Shown in pieces: positions 36,247-45,423 of a stretch of DNA of 64,000 bases. Every line of letters begins with the position of its first letter. The first letter of the stretch is position 1. Source of the stretch: Pleomorphomonas sp. T1.2MG-36 (lineage in GTDB: Bacteria > Pseudomonadota > Alphaproteobacteria > Rhizobiales > Pleomorphomonadaceae); contig NZ_CATNLY010000001.1 of assembly GCF_950100655.1 (NCBI RefSeq), positions 1,054,001 to 1,118,000 of the forward strand, given 5' to 3'. The notes beneath the pieces are model-generated. The model was given only the letters and a program-made list of their open reading frames with translations, did no database searches and had not been told where the DNA came from. The position numbers were made by a program, and so were the translations under genes.

Positions 36247-38004
36247 TCACGCCGGAACCTTGTCGGCGCGACCGTCCGCCATGTCGTTCTCATCGTCTAT
36301 GCTGAGCAGCATCTCGTTGTGTGCCTTGCCCGCGGGGATCATCGGGAAGCAGTGAGCGAGATTGACCACGCGGCAGTCGAACAGCACCGGACGGTCGATG
36401 CGGATCATCTCCTCGATGGCGTCATCGAGTTCCGACGGCTTCGAGCAGCGGATGCCGACGGCGCCGTAAGCCTCGGCCAGGCAGACGAAGTCCGGTTGCG
36501 CGTCGGTGGTCGAATGGCTGACGCGGTTGCCGTGGAACAGTTTCTGCCACTGCCGCACCATGCCCAGATGCTGGTTGTTGAGGATGAACGTCTTGACCGG
36601 CGCATTGTGCTGCACCGCCGTCGACAGTTCCCGGATGTTCATTTGGATCGAGGCATCGCCCGCCACATTGATCACCAGCGCGCCGGGATGGGCGAGCTGG
36701 GTGCCGATGGCGGCCGGCAGGCCGTAGCCCATGGTGCCAAGACCGCCCGACGTCATGAAGCGGTTCGGCTCCTCGAAGCCAAAGTACTGCGCCGCCCACA
36801 TCTGATGCTGGCCGACCTCGGTGGTGATGTAGGTGTCATGCCCCCTCGTCAGCGCATGGAGGCGCTCGATGGCATATTGCGGCATGATCGCCTCAGCCAG
36901 CGGACGATAGGTCAGGCACTTCTTCGCCCGCCAGCCATCGATCTGCTTCCACCAGGCGACACGCGCCGCCTTGTCCTGCACCGGCTTGCGAGCCGTCCAG
37001 GCGGCGATCAAGTCTTCGAGCACCTGCCCGACGTCGCCGACGATCGGCAGGTCGACCATGACGGTCTTGTTGATCGACGACGGGTCGATGTCGATATGGA
37101 TCTTCTTGGAGTTGGGCGAGAACGCGTCGATGCGGCCGGTGATGCGGTCGTCGAAGCGCGCGCCGACACAGACCATCACGTCGCAGTCGTGCATGGCGAG
37201 ATTGGCTTCATAGGTACCGTGCATGCCCAGCATGCCGAGCCAGTTCTTGCCCGAAGCAGGATAGGCGCCGAGGCCCATCAGCGTCGAAGTGATCGGGAAG
37301 CCGGTCATCTTGACGAACTCGCGCAGCAGCGCCACCGCCTTCGGGCCGGAGTTGATGACGCCGCCGCCGGTGTAAAGGATCGGCTTCTTGGCGGCGATCA
37401 TCAGCTCGACCGCCTCGCGGATGGCAGCGTCCGGCGCCTTCACCGCCGGATGATACTGCGTCAGCGCCTTGTCCTTGCAGTTCTCGTAGGTGCCGGTCTG
37501 GAACTGGATGTTCTTGGGGATGTCGACCAGCACCGGGCCGGGACGGCCGGTGGTGGCGACGCGGAAGGCTTCATGGAGGATGCCCGGCAGGTCCTCGATG
37601 CGGCGCACCAGCCAGTTGTGCTTGGTGCAGGGCCGCGTGATGCCCACCGTGTCGGCCTCCTGGAAGGCATCCGTGCCGATCAGCGTCGTCGGAACCTGAC
37701 CGGTGATGCAGACCATGGGAATGGAATCGCTCCGCGCATCGGCCAGCGCCGTCACCATGTTGGCAATGGCAGGACCGGAGGTGACGAGCGCCACGCCGAC
37801 CTTGCCGGTGGAGCGGGCATAGCCCTCGGCGGCATGTCCCGCGCCCTGCTCGTGACGGACGAGGATGTGGCGGACCTCTTCCTGCTGGTACAACTCGTCG
37901 AAGATCGGCAGCACCGCGCTGCCGGGGTAGCCGAAAATGGTGTCGACGCCCTGGTCGATCAGCACCTGGATGACCATTTCCGCGCCTGTCATCTGCCGTG
38001 TCAT
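36247..38004 (-). CDS. ilvB: Acetolactate synthase large subunit, diverged second copy
   Basis: 585 residues, a close paralogue of the copy at 38918-40684 over the whole length. The catalytic Glu52 (RHEQGAGHAAEGYA) and the GDASIQMN cofactor loop remain. Two normally invariant N-terminal segments have changed: GYPGG became GYPGS, and TSGPGATNM became TSGPAIANM (residues 76-83). The C-terminal dozen residues are unrelated. Its own attenuator and leader peptide precede it, but no small-subunit gene follows. It may be an altered-specificity or reduced-activity isozyme that borrows IlvN. Confidence 0.9.
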   Translation of the reverse strand: MTRQMTGAEMVIQVLIDQGVDTIFGYPGSAVLPIFDELYQQEEVRHILVRHEQGAGHAAEGYARSTGKVGVALVTSGPAIANMVTALADARSDSIPMVCITGQVPTTLIGTDAFQEADTVGITRPCTKHNWLVRRIEDLPGILHEAFRVATTGRPGPVLVDIPKNIQFQTGTYENCKDKALTQYHPAVKAPDAAIREAVELMIAAKKPILYTGGGVINSGPKAVALLREFVKMTGFPITSTLMGLGAYPASGKNWLGMLGMHGTYEANLAMHDCDVMVCVGARFDDRITGRIDAFSPNSKKIHIDIDPSSINKTVMVDLPIVGDVGQVLEDLIAAWTARKPVQDKAARVAWWKQIDGWRAKKCLTYRPLAEAIMPQYAIERLHALTRGHDTYITTEVGQHQMWAAQYFGFEEPNRFMTSGGLGTMGYGLPAAIGTQLAHPGALVINVAGDASIQMNIRELSTAVQHNAPVKTFILNNQHLGMVRQWQKLFHGNRVSHSTTDAQPDFVCLAEAYGAVGIRCSKPSELDDAIEEMIRIDRPVLFDCRVVNLAHCFPMIPAGKAHNEMLLSIDDENDMADGRADKVPA

Positions 38005-38044
38005 CGCCTGTTACCTCAAGTTCTCGTTCAAGACATGCGGGCAA

Positions 38045-38069
38045 TAAAAAAGGCCCCGAAGAGGGACCC
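38045..38069 (-). terminator. Attenuator terminator upstream of the diverged ilvB
   Basis: Minus strand: GGGTCCC-tcttc-GGGGCCT followed by TTTTTATT, 41 bases before the ilvB start. With the leader peptide gene just upstream it forms a transcription attenuator. It is almost identical to the hairpin at 40745-40770. Confidence 0.85.
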
Positions 38070-38101
38070 GATTTCCGCGCACCATGAAAAACCGGCAGGC
38101 C

Positions 38102-38158
38102 TCAGGAAGAGACCTCCGACACGGTGCGCCATCGAAGTACTACGAAGAAGAAAGACAT
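38102..38158 (-). CDS. ilv leader peptide, second copy (Phe/Val-rich)
   Basis: An 18-codon frame, MSFFFVVLRWRTVSEVSS, has AGAGGA four bases before its ATG and ends 33 bases before the attenuator terminator. GCGCACC inside it is perfectly complementary to GGTGCGC just downstream, giving a competing stem. Compared with the other leader, the two Leu codons have been replaced by three Phe codons, while VVL is kept. Ribosome stalling here would control the diverged ilvB. Confidence 0.75.
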   Translation of the reverse strand: MSFFFVVLRWRTVSEVSS

Positions 38159-38299
38159 GACGTCCTCTTGAGAAGGCCGGAGCACCCCGCTCCGCCGTTG
38201 CCTGCGTTCAACTCTGCGATGACCCCGACAGTTGTCCGGGAGAATGCCTTCCCCCGAACATGCGCCGGAGCCACCGAACCGTACCGGTCGGGTGGGGCT

Positions 38300-38857
38300 T
38301 CAGATCCCCGTCCGGCCGCGCGCCAGCGCCGCGAGCCCGGTGCGGGCCAGCTCGACGAGGCCGCACTCCTTCATCAGGCCGACGAAGCGGTCGATATCGG
38401 CCGGCGCGCCGGTGATCTCGAACACGTAGGAGTCGAGCGTGGCGTCGACGATGCGGGCGTTGAACGCCTGGGCAAGGCGCAGCGCCTCGTCGCGGATATC
38501 GCCCTTGCCGCACACCTTGACCAAGGCCAGCTCGCGCTCCAGCGCATCGCCGGCCCAGGTAAGGTTGACCACCTTGTGAACAGGCACCAGACGGCCGAGC
38601 TGATGCATGATCTGCGAGATGACCGGCGGCCGGCCCGTCGTCACGATGGTGATGCGCGACATGTGGCTCGCGTGCTCGATCTCCGAGACGGTGAGGCTCT
38701 CGATGTTGTAGCCGCGCCCGGAGAACAGGCCGACGACGCGGGCGAGGACGCCCGGCTCGTTGTCGACCAGCACCGATAGCGTGTGGCTGCGCTCGGTGGC
38801 GGGGAACTCTTCTTCCAGGAAGTAGGCGGACTGGGATTGGCCTGCGACGATCATCAT
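38300..38857 (-). CDS. ilvN: Acetolactate synthase small (regulatory) subunit
   Basis: 185 residues. The N-terminal ACT domain (25-95) reads HTLSVLVDNEPGVLARVVGLFSGRGYNIESL, in pieces typical of IlvN/IlvH and its valine site. A C-terminal ALS_ss domain follows (E-L-A-L-V-K-V, R-I-V-D-A-T-L-D-S-Y-V-F-E-I-T-G). It activates the large subunit and confers valine feedback inhibition. It starts 60 bases after ilvB (38918-40684) in the same operon. The next unit downstream begins with its own leader region. Confidence 0.96.
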   Translation of the reverse strand: MMIVAGQSQSAYFLEEEFPATERSHTLSVLVDNEPGVLARVVGLFSGRGYNIESLTVSEIEHASHMSRITIVTTGRPPVISQIMHQLGRLVPVHKVVNLTWAGDALERELALVKVCGKGDIRDEALRLAQAFNARIVDATLDSYVFEITGAPADIDRFVGLMKECGLVELARTGLAALARGRTGI

Positions 38858-38917
38858 GATGTCAATTCCGATAAAGTGTTGCGTGCGGATGCGAGGGGCC
38901 GCGTCAGCGGCCGCGCC

Positions 38918-40684
38918 TCACACCAGAACCTTGCCGGCGGTGCCGATGGCCGTCTCGATCTCCTCGTCGGAGACGTCTGCGCCCAGCAGCATCTCGTTGT
39001 GGGCCTTGCCCGAGGGGATCATCGGGAAGCAGTTGGCGAGGCTGACCACGTGGCAGTCGAACAGCACCGGGCGATCGATGCGGATCATCTCCTCGATGGC
39101 ATCGTCGAGTTCGGACGGCTTCGAACAACGAATGCCGACGGCGCCATAGGCCTCGGCGAGACGCACGAAGTCGGGCTGGGAATCGACATAGGAATGGCTG
39201 AGCCGGTTGCCATGCAGCAACTGCTGCCACTGGCGCACCATGCCCATGTACTGGTTGTTCAGGATGAACGCCTTGACCGGTGCGTTGTGCTGCACCGCCG
39301 TCGACAGCTCCTGGATGTTCATCTGGATCGAGGCGTCTCCCGCGATGTCGATCACCAGCGCACCGGGATGGGCGAGCTGGGTGCCGATGGCGGCCGGCAG
39401 GCCGTAGCCCATGGTGCCGAGACCGCCCGAGGTCATGAAGCGGTTCGGCTCCTCGAAGCCATAGTACTGCGCCGCCCACATCTGATGCTGGCCGACCTCG
39501 GTGGTGATGTAGGTGTCGCGATCCTTGGTCAGCGCGTAGAGGCGCTCGATGGCATATTGCGGCATGATCGCCTCGGCCGACGGACGGTAGGTCAGGCACT
39601 TCTTCGCCCGCCAGCCGTCGATCTGCTTCCACCACGCCCCAAGCGCCGCCTTGTCCTGGATCGGCTTGCGGGCCGTCCAGGCGGCGATCATGTCTTCCAG
39701 GACATGCCCGACGTCGCCGACGATCGGCAGGTCGACCACGACGTTCTTGTTGATCGACGACGGGTCGATGTCGATGTGGATCTTCTTGGAGTTGGGCGAG
39801 AAGGCATCGATGCGGCCGGTGATGCGATCGTCGAAGCGCGCGCCGATGCAAACCATCACGTCGCAGTCGTGCATGGCGAGGTTGGCTTCATAGGTGCCGT
39901 GCATGCCCAGCATGCCCAGCCAGTTCTTGCCCGAGGCCGGATAGGCGCCGAGACCCATCAGCGTCGAGGTGATCGGGAAGCCGGTCATCTTGACGAACTC
40001 GCGCAGCAGCGCCACCGCCTTCGGGCCGGAGTTGATGACGCCGCCGCCGGTGTAGAGGATCGGCTTCTTGGCGGCGATCATCAGCTCGACCGCCTCGCGG
40101 ATGGCAGCGTCCGGCGCCTTCACCGCCGGATGATACTGCGTCAGCGCCTTGTCCTTGCAGTTCTCGTAGGTGCCGGTCTGGAACTGGATGTTCTTGGGGA
40201 TGTCGACCAGCACCGGGCCGGGGCGGCCGGTGGTGGCGATGCGGAAGGCCTCGTGCAGGATGCCCGGCAGGTCCTCGATGCGGCGCACCAGCCAGTTGTG
40301 CTTGGTGCAGGGCCGCGTGATGCCCACCGTGTCGGCCTCCTGGAAGGCGTCCGTGCCGATCAGCGTCGTCGGAACCTGACCGGTGATGCAGACCATGGGG
40401 ATCGAGTCGAGCAACGCGTCGGTCAGCGCCGTCACCATGTTGGTGGCGCCGGGGCCCGAGGTGGCGAGCGCCACGCCGACCTTGCCGGTGGAGCGAGCAT
40501 AGCCCTCGGCGGCATGTCCCGCGCCCTGCTCGTGGCGGACGAGGATGTGGCGGACCTCCTCCTGCTGGAACAGTTCGTCGAAGATCGGCAGCACCGCGCC
40601 GCCGGGATAGCCGAAAATGGTGTCGACGCCCTGATCGATCAGCGCCTGGATGACCATTTCCGCGCCTGTCATCTGCCGTGTCAT
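38918..40684 (-). CDS. ilvB: Acetolactate synthase large subunit, canonical copy
   Basis: 588 residues. ThDP/FAD enzyme making acetolactate or acetohydroxybutyrate, the first shared step of branched-chain amino acid synthesis. All hallmark segments are intact: FGYPGGAVLP, RHEQGAGHAAEGYAR (catalytic Glu), TSGPGATNM, GMVRQWQ, and the ThDP-binding GDASIQMN. It heads the leader-ilvB-ilvN operon. The first nine codons and about 20 upstream bases are identical to those of the second copy, showing the duplication reached into the leader. Confidence 0.96.
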   Translation of the reverse strand: MTRQMTGAEMVIQALIDQGVDTIFGYPGGAVLPIFDELFQQEEVRHILVRHEQGAGHAAEGYARSTGKVGVALATSGPGATNMVTALTDALLDSIPMVCITGQVPTTLIGTDAFQEADTVGITRPCTKHNWLVRRIEDLPGILHEAFRIATTGRPGPVLVDIPKNIQFQTGTYENCKDKALTQYHPAVKAPDAAIREAVELMIAAKKPILYTGGGVINSGPKAVALLREFVKMTGFPITSTLMGLGAYPASGKNWLGMLGMHGTYEANLAMHDCDVMVCIGARFDDRITGRIDAFSPNSKKIHIDIDPSSINKNVVVDLPIVGDVGHVLEDMIAAWTARKPIQDKAALGAWWKQIDGWRAKKCLTYRPSAEAIMPQYAIERLYALTKDRDTYITTEVGQHQMWAAQYYGFEEPNRFMTSGGLGTMGYGLPAAIGTQLAHPGALVIDIAGDASIQMNIQELSTAVQHNAPVKAFILNNQYMGMVRQWQQLLHGNRLSHSYVDSQPDFVRLAEAYGAVGIRCSKPSELDDAIEEMIRIDRPVLFDCHVVSLANCFPMIPSGKAHNEMLLGADVSDEEIETAIGTAGKVLV

Positions 40685-40744
40685 CGCCTGTTACCTCAAG
40701 CTCTCGTCCCGTTATCCCGGGGAAATCGTTGCGTTGTTCAGGTA

Positions 40745-40770
40745 ATAAAAAAGGCCCCGAAGAGGGACCT
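40745..40770 (-). terminator. Attenuator terminator upstream of canonical ilvB
   Basis: Minus strand: AGGTCCC-tcttc-GGGGCCT (one T-G pair) followed by TTTTTTATT, about 60 bases before the ilvB start. This is a classical intrinsic terminator in a leader, not at a gene end. Confidence 0.88.
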
Positions 40771-40802
40771 GACTTTCGCGCACCATGAAAACCCGGCAGG
40801 CC

Positions 40803-40859
40803 TCAGTGAGAGACCTCCGACACGGTGCGCCATGTAAGTACTACGAGAAGGGAACGCAT
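40803..40859 (-). CDS. ilv leader peptide (Leu/Val-rich)
   Basis: An 18-codon frame, MRSLLVVLTWRTVSEVSH, has an AGAGGG ribosome site and ends 33 bases before the attenuator terminator. The run Leu-Leu-Val-Val-Leu is what a sensor of branched-chain aminoacyl-tRNA needs. Its GCGCACC can pair with GGTGCGC before the terminator. When Leu or Val is scarce, stalling would favour read-through into ilvB-ilvN. It is too short for ordinary gene finders. Confidence 0.85.
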   Translation of the reverse strand: MRSLLVVLTWRTVSEVSH

Positions 40860-40929
40860 GCCGCCCTCTGGCTCATATGCCGGGACAACCCCGGAATTGG
40901 CGGCAACGTAGCGGTAGCCGGCTGGTCGG

Positions 40930-41877
40930 TCAAGAGCCTTGTTTCATTCGTTGCGCGGTATCGTCGACCACAGCAACAAAATGTCGCGACGCCGCCGGAT
41001 TGAGGCGCGGCCAGTCCGGCATCTGATTGCGGAACCAGGTTTCCTGCCGTTTGGCATATTGCCGTGTCGCCGTGATCGCCGCCTCGACGGCCGCCTCGAC
41101 GGCGATCTCCCCCCGCGCCGCCGCCATCATTTCCGGCACGCCGATGGCCTTCATGGCCGGCAGCGCCGGGTCGAGTCGAAGAGCGGCAAACGCCCGCGCC
41201 TCATCAAGCCCGCCGTCCGCCGCCATGGCGCGGAATCGCTCGTCGATGCGGGCATGCAGCCAGTCACGGTCCGGCGCCATGACGATATGAGCGACATGCG
41301 CGCCTGAGATCAGCGGCCGCGAGCGCTTCTCCTGCCATTCCGACAGCGGCCGTCCCGTGCTGTCGGCAACCTCCAGCGCCCTCAGCACCCGCTGCGTATC
41401 GTTGGGATGCAGCCGGCCGTGGAGCACCGGGTCGACCACCGCCAGCTCCCTGTGCAGGCTGGCCGGGCTCATCGCCCGTGCCCGCTCGCGCCAGAAGGCA
41501 CGCACCTGGCTGTCGATGGGCGGCACGTCGGAGAGCCCTTGCGTCATCGCGTTGAAGTAGAGGCCGGTACCGCCGACGATCACCGCCGGCCGGCCGGCGA
41601 TCTCCTTCAGCGTCCGTTCGAGATCGTCGAGATAGCGGGCGACGGTATAGCCCTCGCCACCGCCGACATGGCCGTAGAGGCGGTGCGGCGCGCGCGCCTC
41701 GTCCTCCGGGGACGGTCGCGCCGTCAGGATGCGCAGCTCGCGATAGACCTGCATCGAATCGGCGTTGATCACCACGCCGTCGCAGCGCTCGGCGATCGCC
41801 AACGCCAGAGCCGACTTGCCGCTCGCCGTCGGGCCGGCTATCAGAACCGCGCGCCTTTCTACCGTCTCCGCCGTCAC
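40930..41877 (-). CDS. miaA: tRNA dimethylallyltransferase
   Basis: About 315 residues. Adds dimethylallyl to A37 of tRNAs that read UNN codons. The P-loop AGPTASGKSALALAIA lies near residue 13. The substrate-site D-S-M-Q-V-Y-R follows, then G-G-T-G-L-Y-F-N-A and the C-terminal R-Q-Y-A-K-R-Q-E-T-W-F-R-N-Q. The start is taken as GTG 41877 (GGGAGG upstream), which leaves 14 bases to serB. The ATG at 41919 would overlap serB by 28 bases. The gene ends just upstream of the ilv leader. Confidence 0.95.
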   Translation of the reverse strand: MTAETVERRAVLIAGPTASGKSALALAIAERCDGVVINADSMQVYRELRILTARPSPEDEARAPHRLYGHVGGGEGYTVARYLDDLERTLKEIAGRPAVIVGGTGLYFNAMTQGLSDVPPIDSQVRAFWRERARAMSPASLHRELAVVDPVLHGRLHPNDTQRVLRALEVADSTGRPLSEWQEKRSRPLISGAHVAHIVMAPDRDWLHARIDERFRAMAADGGLDEARAFAALRLDPALPAMKAIGVPEMMAAARGEIAVEAAVEAAITATRQYAKRQETWFRNQMPDWPRLNPAASRHFVAVVDDTAQRMKQGS

Positions 41878-42814: not shown

Positions 42815-42915
42815 CTGCCCGAGGTCCTGCGCCTTCGCGCAGGATGACGGCTTTATATAAATGAAAACAAATACATAGATTGTCATCCTGCGCGAAGGCG
42901 CAGGACCTCGGGCAG
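42815..42915. repeat. Dispersed inverted-repeat element, copy 3
   Basis: Hairpin arms at 42825-42844 and 42886-42905, inverted around an AT-rich centre, with outer CTGCCCGAGG and CCTCGGGCAG pairing. It lies between the convergent serB and TauE/SafE genes, as the other two copies lie between convergent genes. Confidence 0.9.
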
Positions 42916-44944: not shown

Positions 44945-45265
44945 AGTGGAGGCTTCTGTTGCCAGGTGCCTCCGAACCCCGCCTAAAGGTGCAACCCCCT
45001 AGGGCTTGATTCCCAGTTTGGGCACCGCATTACGCGGCGACGGCCACCGGAGCATAGTTGTCATTCGCAACTATAGGTTTAGCCCGATAACGGTGGTACA
45101 ATGCCGAGTGAAAGAGCCGCCTTTACGCCCCCGTCGATCCTATTTCGCCCCCGCCGAAGGCCTTGCGCCGATTGGCTTTGCAAGGCCTTGGGTGGAGGCG
45201 CCGGGTACCGCCCCCGGGTCCGAATGGTTTATTGCGCAGTCCGTTTATCACCATAGCCGGATTGC
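44945..45265 (-). ncRNA. ssrA: tmRNA, circularly permuted two-piece form
   Basis: The minus strand encodes both pieces. The acceptor piece ends near 45193 with CGCCTCC plus discriminator A, preceded by a T arm CCGGG-ggcggta-CCCGG. A removed spacer (45153-45189) with a 10-bp inverted repeat AAGGCCTTGC/GCAAGGCCTT follows. The coding piece starts at 45152 with GGGGGCGA. GGGGGCG pairs with CGCCTCC, including the G3-U70 pair recognised by alanyl-tRNA synthetase. The tag frame 45068-45030 reads ANDNYAPVAVAA then TAA. The 3' end has a GGAGGC/GCCTCC hairpin. The outer ends are approximate. Confidence 0.93.
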
Positions 45266-45423
45266 TCCGGCAGGAAGACATATAGGGGCTGGAGGCCCGC
45301 CTGTGAAGAGGCCGCAAACGATCCGTCCCCACCCTGGGACGCGGCCATGCGCCGCGCCGCCTTGACCGGGTAGCGGCCCAAGTCCGATAGAAGCGCTGAA
45401 ACGCACAGAACCGGCGAGTTCCC

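Follow-up and report, generated by a model that had tools for sequence, protein, structure and literature searches.

In the ilv and leu attenuators of Escherichia coli, the position of the ribosome at the control codons of a leader decides whether the terminator forms, and we know of no internal second copy of such an attenuator there. The ilvB leader peptide and attenuator of alphaproteobacteria reportedly goes back, as told in a paper citing it, to Vitreschak et al. in 2004. That such a leader peptide had been reported before for this bacterial class is stated by Corbino et al. (2005; PMC1273637). A 64,000-nucleotide stretch of Pleomorphomonas sp. T1.2MG-36 (contig NZ_CATNLY010000001.1, positions 1,054,001 to 1,118,000; hereafter the window) carries an attenuator of this kind and ilvB, the gene for the large subunit of acetolactate synthase, twice in one operon, each leader standing before its own ilvB copy. 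The order on the minus strand is miaA, leader 1, ilvB1, ilvN, leader 2, ilvB2, a glyoxalase-like gene (Pfam Glyoxalase_3) and pdxJ (Table 1). The second ilvB lies 3′ of ilvN, which is single in the whole genome; the switch and the enzyme were thus duplicated without ilvN, as a preliminary description of this DNA had proposed. The sequence evidence argues, with a probability of roughly two in three, that both leaders are ribosome-mediated valine/leucine attenuators and that leader 2 is internal, acting in series with leader 1.

Each ilvB copy is preceded by an 18-residue leader open reading frame (ORF), a GCGCACCGUG/CAUGGUGCGC hairpin and an intrinsic terminator. Leader 1 starts with the codons ATG CGT TCC CTT CTC GTA GTA CTT ACA TGG, and leader 2 with ATG TCT TTC TTC TTC GTA GTA CTT CGA TGG. 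The Phe-Phe-Phe run reported earlier for leader 2 is present, but it replaces Ser-Leu-Leu and not Leu-Leu, and the Val-Val-Leu that follows is intact, codons included. Both leaders contain a GCGCACC/GGTGCGC pair whose full arms (GCGCACCGTG/CATGGTGCGC) form a 10-pair outer stem; an inner hairpin is nested within it, and the terminator hairpin ends in six T. An independent pattern scan recovered both terminators (four terminator-like sites in 3.1 kb, against 1.3 expected). Folding z-scores relative to dinucleotide shuffles were −3.28 for leader 1 and −4.28 for leader 2, with none of 200 shuffles as stable in either case. A covariance model built from 19 relatives, with the window genome excluded, matched leader 1 at 124 bits (E 3.7e-27) and leader 2 at 119 bits (E 5.5e-26), which excludes chance for both. 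The ORFs, the folding scores, the terminator scan and the covariance model therefore agree on the leader, hairpin and terminator first noticed before both ilvB copies.

A leader of the same shape lies upstream of ilvB in all 20 family genomes (G000 to G019), and 25 leaders were collected in total, using a pattern that includes GTACTT and allows one mismatch; with this pattern a leader was recovered in every genome. A sequence search with leader 2 of the window gave E values of at most 1.2e-7 in 18 of these genomes and weaker matches in G015 and G017. Four of the 25 are divergent second leaders (G000, G005, G008 and G013). The three of them from outside the window scored 106.5 to 112.6 bits with the covariance model, and the second leader of G012 scored 126.9. 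Covariation, suggested earlier as a check on the stems, was seen in the inner stem, where five pairs have changes on both sides; 7 of the 10 outer pairs are invariant. In an even draw of 150 genomes of the order, with G000 as the sole member of Pleomorphomonas, the model matched 68 at E 1e-4 or better (four of these, G014, G016, G017 and G018, had contributed sequences to it), and 68 of its 70 matches lay <400 bases ahead of an ilvB in the same orientation. A short ORF with at least three consecutive Ile, Leu or Val residues was found within 450 upstream bases at 71 of 80 named alphaproteobacterial ilvB loci, a count made without a chance control and likely to include some spurious ORFs. The strict core GTACTT-N5-GCGCACCGT (≤3 mismatches) was present upstream of ilvB at only one of the 80, 682 bases off and without an ORF, and the wider class therefore has the architecture, not the core sequence, in common. 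At the Rfam gathering threshold, the matches in the window were to transfer-messenger RNA (tmRNA) and tRNA only. Both leaders are of the alphaproteobacterial ilvB type, a switch that was already known; the model match, the position before ilvB, the stems and the predicted Val-Val-Leu ORF uphold their first assignment to the ilv attenuators. Two unusual settings were also seen in the order. In G133 (C2:433745-433855; L140 146-256), an ilvB-type leader and terminator directly precede an MFS_1 (Major Facilitator) ORF instead of ilvB, and in G041 a second ilvB on another contig (C1049:6253-8065; 64% identical) has a leader match, while the main ilvB has none at E 1e-4.

Codon positions count backwards from the CGC of the 5′ hairpin arm. 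All 25 leaders have GTA at −4 and CTT at −3, a conservation that is partly by construction because the collecting pattern includes GTACTT; at −5, GTA occurs in 19 and ATC in six, making this codon Val or Ile in every case. A lack of leader-codon conservation in relatives had been named as a result that would speak against attenuation, and the reverse was found. In the 37 ORFs of the window, GTA makes up 1.8% of Val codons, CTT 7.8% of its synonyms and TTC 89.6% of Phe codons. The GUA-GUA-CUU block, which adjoins the hairpin, is intact in all four divergent second leaders. In the mechanism proposed, fast reading of this block would allow first the GCGCACCGUG/CAUGGUGCGC hairpin and next the terminator to fold, ending transcription. 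A ribosome waiting at the block would instead cover the 5′ arm of the hairpin, and its freed 3′ part could compete for the 5′ arm of the terminator, so that RNA polymerase would continue.

The element TTGACC-N17-TAnnnT lies upstream of leader 1 in all 14 loci examined, from 14 of the 20 genomes with the leader locus, and at none of five second leaders (G000, G005, G008, G012 and G013). This difference indicates that the two attenuators are probably in series on one transcript, and a leader 2 inside the ilvBN transcript is the simplest reading of the locus. A tandem duplication in Pleomorphomonas would have placed a leader and ilvB copy 3′ of ilvN without its −35 element, which would make leader 2 an internal attenuator. 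ilvB2 would then be made only from transcripts that had passed attenuator 1, ilvB1, ilvN and attenuator 2. Two switches in series for the same amino acids would be expected to keep ilvB2 expression lower, and its dependence on starvation steeper, than that of ilvBN. The earlier picture of two separate switch-enzyme units thus stands as regards the two leader-ilvB copies, but not as regards their independence, leader 2 lacking the promoter-like element of leader 1 and probably being reached by read-through.

Ribosome stalling was modelled by masking the RNA up to a ribosome edge 12 bases beyond the start of the A-site codon (a footprint value taken from general background), at a time before the 3′ arm of the terminator exists. 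With stalls at −8 to −5, mean outer-stem pairing was 1.00 in the 21 other leaders and alike in the four divergent second leaders. It fell to 0.83 and 0.84 (respectively) at −4, to 0.28 and 0.35 at −3, and to 0.00 at −2. Ribosome edges of 11 to 14 shifted this drop by about one codon. Since stalls at −4 and −3 open the outer stem and those at −8 to −5 do not, the conserved Val/Leu codons are the stem-opening ones in this model.

Several results weigh against the reading of two Val/Leu attenuators in series. Only the last Val codon and the Leu codon contact the stem in the stall model. In the second leaders, occupancy of the terminator 5′ arm (edge 12) was 0.53 with a stall at −8, 0.32 at −7, 0.10–0.15 at −6 to −4, 0.26 at −3 and, as expected, 0.42–0.57 at −2 to 0, with 0.57 at −2 itself. 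In the model, arm occupancy does not single out the Val/Leu codons: the first Phe codon is indistinguishable from −2, and the Val effect is small. When the complete leader was folded at equilibrium, the terminator stood at ≥0.67 at every stalled codon in both window leaders, and only G018 of the 25 leaders had <0.4 terminator. With the terminator winning at equilibrium, any antitermination would need a kinetic basis. Such folding of the leader with its entire terminator was also tried as a test of stall sites, and was dropped as it does not discriminate between them. The candidate antiterminator (GAGGCC.../...GGUCCCUC) pairs weakly or variably, and was not evident by eye in distant family members. 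As to the promoter, the leader 1 element agrees with 8 of the 12 sigma-70 consensus positions and the best leader 2 sites with 6 to 7, and a stricter consensus scan (threshold 9) of positions 37950-41050 returned no promoter, the leader 1 element included. The case for that element rests on conservation, because its 8/12 match falls below the scan threshold.

It is unlikely, although the least improbable of the rival readings, that leader 2 has its own promoter of another kind, with ilvB2 regulated independently of attenuator 1. The gap of ∼140 bases between ilvN and leader 2 would offer room for one, and the scans used only the sigma-70 consensus, to which even the leader 1 element conforms weakly. 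However, no promoter-like element common to the five second-leader upstream regions was visible by eye, and the pattern scan detected nothing resembling a terminator in the stretch from ilvN to leader 2 of the window, so read-through is possible. G012 is also informative: its second leader is almost identical to its first (24/24 and 41/41 bases in the ORF and 5′ stem), but the homology extends upstream no further than the −10 region, and TTGACC is absent.

Paired leader-ilvB units, for which a search of relatives had been suggested, are not confined to the window: a second ilvB after ilvN was seen or inferred in 8 of 14 Pleomorphomonas genomes. It lies on one contig in G000, G005, G012 and G013 and across two contigs in G008, and was inferred in G009, G001 and G011, where contigs start at or inside ilvB and run straight into the glyoxalase-like gene. 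Six genomes have a single ilvB (G002, G003, G004, G006, G007 and G010). Contigs of G001, G009 and G011 (L044, L045, L047, L048, L137 and L138) end at or inside ilvB, which fits assembly collapse at a near-identical tandem repeat. Among the 150 genomes of the order, only G000 and G041 contain a pair of ilvB genes that reach E 1e-200, those of G041 being on different contigs. In a four-gene tree, G000, G005, G008 and G013 form one clade (support 96); several other nodes of this tree are weak (24–42), three genomes entered it without ilvN and four without pdxJ, and G010 has a long branch.

The second copies have a mosaic history. In segment trees the B2 copies cluster over codons 1 to ∼167, 301–480 and 448 to the end (support 100 each). 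Over codons 111–300, B1 pairs with its own B2 in G000 (94) and G005 (89), and G013_B2 joins G013_B1/G008_B1 (75). Mid-gene synonymous divergence was 0.14–0.16 between the copies within a genome (G000, G005 and G013) versus 0.26–0.32 between B2 orthologues, a sign that conversion followed speciation; the copies diverge by 0.37–0.64 at the 3′ end. In G009, the 1344 common bases are identical. The 3′ half of leader 2 in G000 matches its own leader 1 at 45 of 49 bases and the other second leaders at 40–41, and also looks converted. In the 3′ segment tree G009_B2 joins the B2 clade (87) and the G012 copies join each other (94), a mixed pattern that favours neither one duplication with losses nor several duplications.

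Such conversion is what would be expected if leader 2 were a passive remnant, kept similar to leader 1 by gene conversion and reducing ilvB2 through partial termination at a fixed level; the loss of one of the 10 outer pairs in the G008 second leader points the same way. This explanation is slightly less likely still than a separate promoter. All four divergent second leaders keep the ATG, the AGAGGAC before it, GTA GTA CTT, the seven invariant outer pairs and T6, whereas in their six pairwise comparisons the 27 bases ahead of the start agree at 15 to 26 positions.

The preliminary description had also proposed that the amino acid sensed by leader 2 may have drifted; on this view leader 2 would be retuned to phenylalanine, with UUC-UUC-UUC as the new control block. 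The divergent second leaders do differ from the other 21 at these positions. Codon −7 is Phe in four of four, against Leu in 13 and Ser, Lys, Ala or Thr in eight of the others; codon −6 is Phe in three and Cys in one (G005), against Leu or Ile in 18 and Ser in three, meaning that Phe is found at neither position outside the divergent set and that a branched-chain codon was lost at −6. Codon −8 is Phe in two of four and in 3 of 21. Arm occupancy lends the proposal some support, the mean at −8 being about equal to that at −2 (see above) and the values for leader 2 of G000 at edge 10 being 0.53, 0.43 and 0.33 at the three Phe codons versus 0.35–0.41 at Val-Val-Leu. However, Val-Val-Leu is retained with identical codons in all four, and the Phe codons are not placed to open the protecting hairpin, the modelled outer stem remaining at 1.00 with stalls at −8 to −6. 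G005 has Cys and not Phe at −6, and the changed positions also drift in single-copy leaders (FSS in G003, FLS in G004). IlvB2 is an AHAS-type (acetohydroxyacid synthase) protein with no evident reason to follow phenylalanine. That UUC is the common Phe codon is a weaker objection, one tRNA reading both Phe codons. Retuning to phenylalanine is thus improbable and is not supported by the stall model, and the second switch probably keeps sensing valine and leucine. Least probable of all is a mainly trans-acting role of the terminated leaders, whether as small RNA or as peptide, after the example of rnTrpL/peTrpL in Sinorhizobium. This precedent comes from the same class, rnTrpL being termed a dual-function sRNA in PMC10117765, but no target is known here and the first residues and C-terminal end of the peptide vary among the leaders.

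IlvB2 is 91% identical to IlvB1, contains all three thiamine diphosphate (ThDP)-enzyme Pfam domains and scores 773.4 bits with TIGR00118 (cut-off 538.35). Its residue 52 is a conserved Glu aligned to the catalytic Glu, which we take to correspond to yeast E139. The AHAS motif GPGATN is replaced by GPAIAN. The three complete B2 proteins have 15 fixed substitutions in common that do not occur in 16 further family sequences; they include A79-I80-A81 (in place of G-A-T), R91, N446, R458, T472, H551 and A558. The cut B2 protein of G008 agrees at A79-I80-A81 and R91. By eye, its 3′ part, found on another contig, also carries the N, R, T, H and A. Among the best 120 of at least 5879 homologue matches at E 1e-250, 115 have GPGATN and five GPAIAN; these five form the IlvB2 group, P0003 and P0004 being the same NRK KF1 protein with different starts. 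GPGATN is found in 79 of the 80 named loci, the 80th being unreadable and presumably L061 (the cut IlvB2 of G008). GPAIAN together with R91 was seen in the clade of four genomes and in two metagenome proteins. The ratio of nonsynonymous to synonymous divergence (dN/dS) was 0.10–0.15 between B2 orthologues (three pairs) versus 0.03–0.09 for B1 (six pairs), low but above B1, and IlvB2 is thus maintained by purifying selection, with less constraint. An AHAS isozyme of altered property is favoured over a dead copy.

Two more specific ideas about IlvB2 were set aside. S29 is common to these B2 proteins, and by alignment and customary numbering residues 29 and 558 presumably correspond to yeast G116 and Arabidopsis S653, which are known inhibitor sites. 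Herbicide resistance through G29S was dropped as a main claim, as metagenome protein P0002 has G29 and a Candida sequence has A at 558; titles and abstract openings of the literature on these sites contained no G116S. The loop motif resembles what we take to be those of Gcl and MenD. Drift towards a glyoxylate carboligase is a weak proposal: Gcl models gain only 1–4 bits over IlvB1 (406.3 to 407.6; 340.4 to 344.6), and TIGR00118 loses 19. A wider and tentative scenario, doubtful as a whole, is that in one clade ilvB2 encodes a distinct ThDP enzyme (GPAIAN, R91 loop), possibly with a changed response to inhibitors or a changed substrate, and that two Val/Leu attenuators in series restrict its production to deep starvation, the gene ends being held apart by selection and the middle homogenised by conversion.

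Table 1. Features of the duplicated locus (positions in the window)
Feature	Position	Strand	Basis or remark
Promoter-like element of leader 1, TTGACC-N17-TACGTT	40905..40933	−	Conservation across loci
Leader peptide ORF 1, MRSLLVVLTWRTVSEVSH + stop	40803..40859	−	Control block GTA GTA CTT
Leader 1 hairpin, whole	40778..40830	−	Folding and alignment of 25 leaders
Leader 1 outer arms	GCGCACCGTG 40821-40830, CATGGTGCGC 40778-40787	−	
Leader 1 inner stem	40810-40820 paired with 40793-40804	−	
Intrinsic terminator 1, GGTCCC-TCTTC-GGGGCC-T6	40747..40769	−	Folding, alignment, pattern scan
ilvB1, acetolactate synthase large subunit, 588 aa	38918..40684	−	NF006581 and TIGR00118 above cut-off
ilvN, acetolactate synthase small subunit	38300..38857	−	Single copy in genome
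Leader peptide ORF 2, MSFFFVVLRWRTVSEVSS + stop	38102..38158	−	Control block GTA GTA CTT retained
Leader 2 hairpin, whole	38077..38129	−	Folding, alignment, covariance model
Leader 2 outer arms	38120-38129 and 38077-38086	−	
Leader 2 inner stem	38109-38119 paired with 38092-38103	−	
Intrinsic terminator 2, GGTCCC-TCTTC-GGGGCC-T6	38046..38068	−	Folding, alignment, pattern scan
ilvB2, AHAS-like large subunit, 585 aa, GPAIAN at residues 77-82	36247..38004	−	

Elsewhere in the window, a 34-base inverted repeat with identical arms (42815-42848 and 42882-42915) follows the 3′ end of a HAD-family gene, labelled serB-like, and precedes the next gene, and positions 44945-45311 of the minus strand hold an alphaproteobacterial (permuted) tmRNA.

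In a search of mainly open-access literature, at the level of titles and abstract openings, neither tandem leader-ilvB units nor the ilvB of Pleomorphomonas were found described. What appears to be new is the tandem arrangement with an apparently promoterless second attenuator, the second ilvB in 8 of 14 genomes of the genus, and the GPAIAN IlvB2. If the proposed arrangement is true, two near-identical attenuators in series on a natural transcript would allow a direct test of codon content and of series effects, with the single-copy sister genomes serving as controls for series attenuation. The IlvB1/IlvB2 pair, whose difference is localized in an otherwise constant loop, would provide a clean test of the role of the AHAS GPGATN loop; relative to the AHAS large subunits described by TIGR00118, IlvB2 is above the cut-off, but has GPAIAN for GPGATN and the 15 fixed substitutions.

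The E. coli ilv and leu attenuators resemble the leaders described here in the role given to the position of the ribosome at the control codons, but their hairpins are different. The tandem attenuators of Salmonella mgtCBR (PMC3641672) reportedly likewise combine two attenuators in a single transcript; their two short ORFs belong to one long leader, whereas here ilvB1 and ilvN lie between the attenuators and the origin is a gene duplication. The closest relatives, the alphaproteobacterial ilvB leaders, have the same succession of a leader peptide ORF with branched-chain codons, a hairpin and a terminator before ilvB, but in Pleomorphomonas the Val/Leu block is shorter, and two copies occur in one operon, the second without the promoter element of the first.

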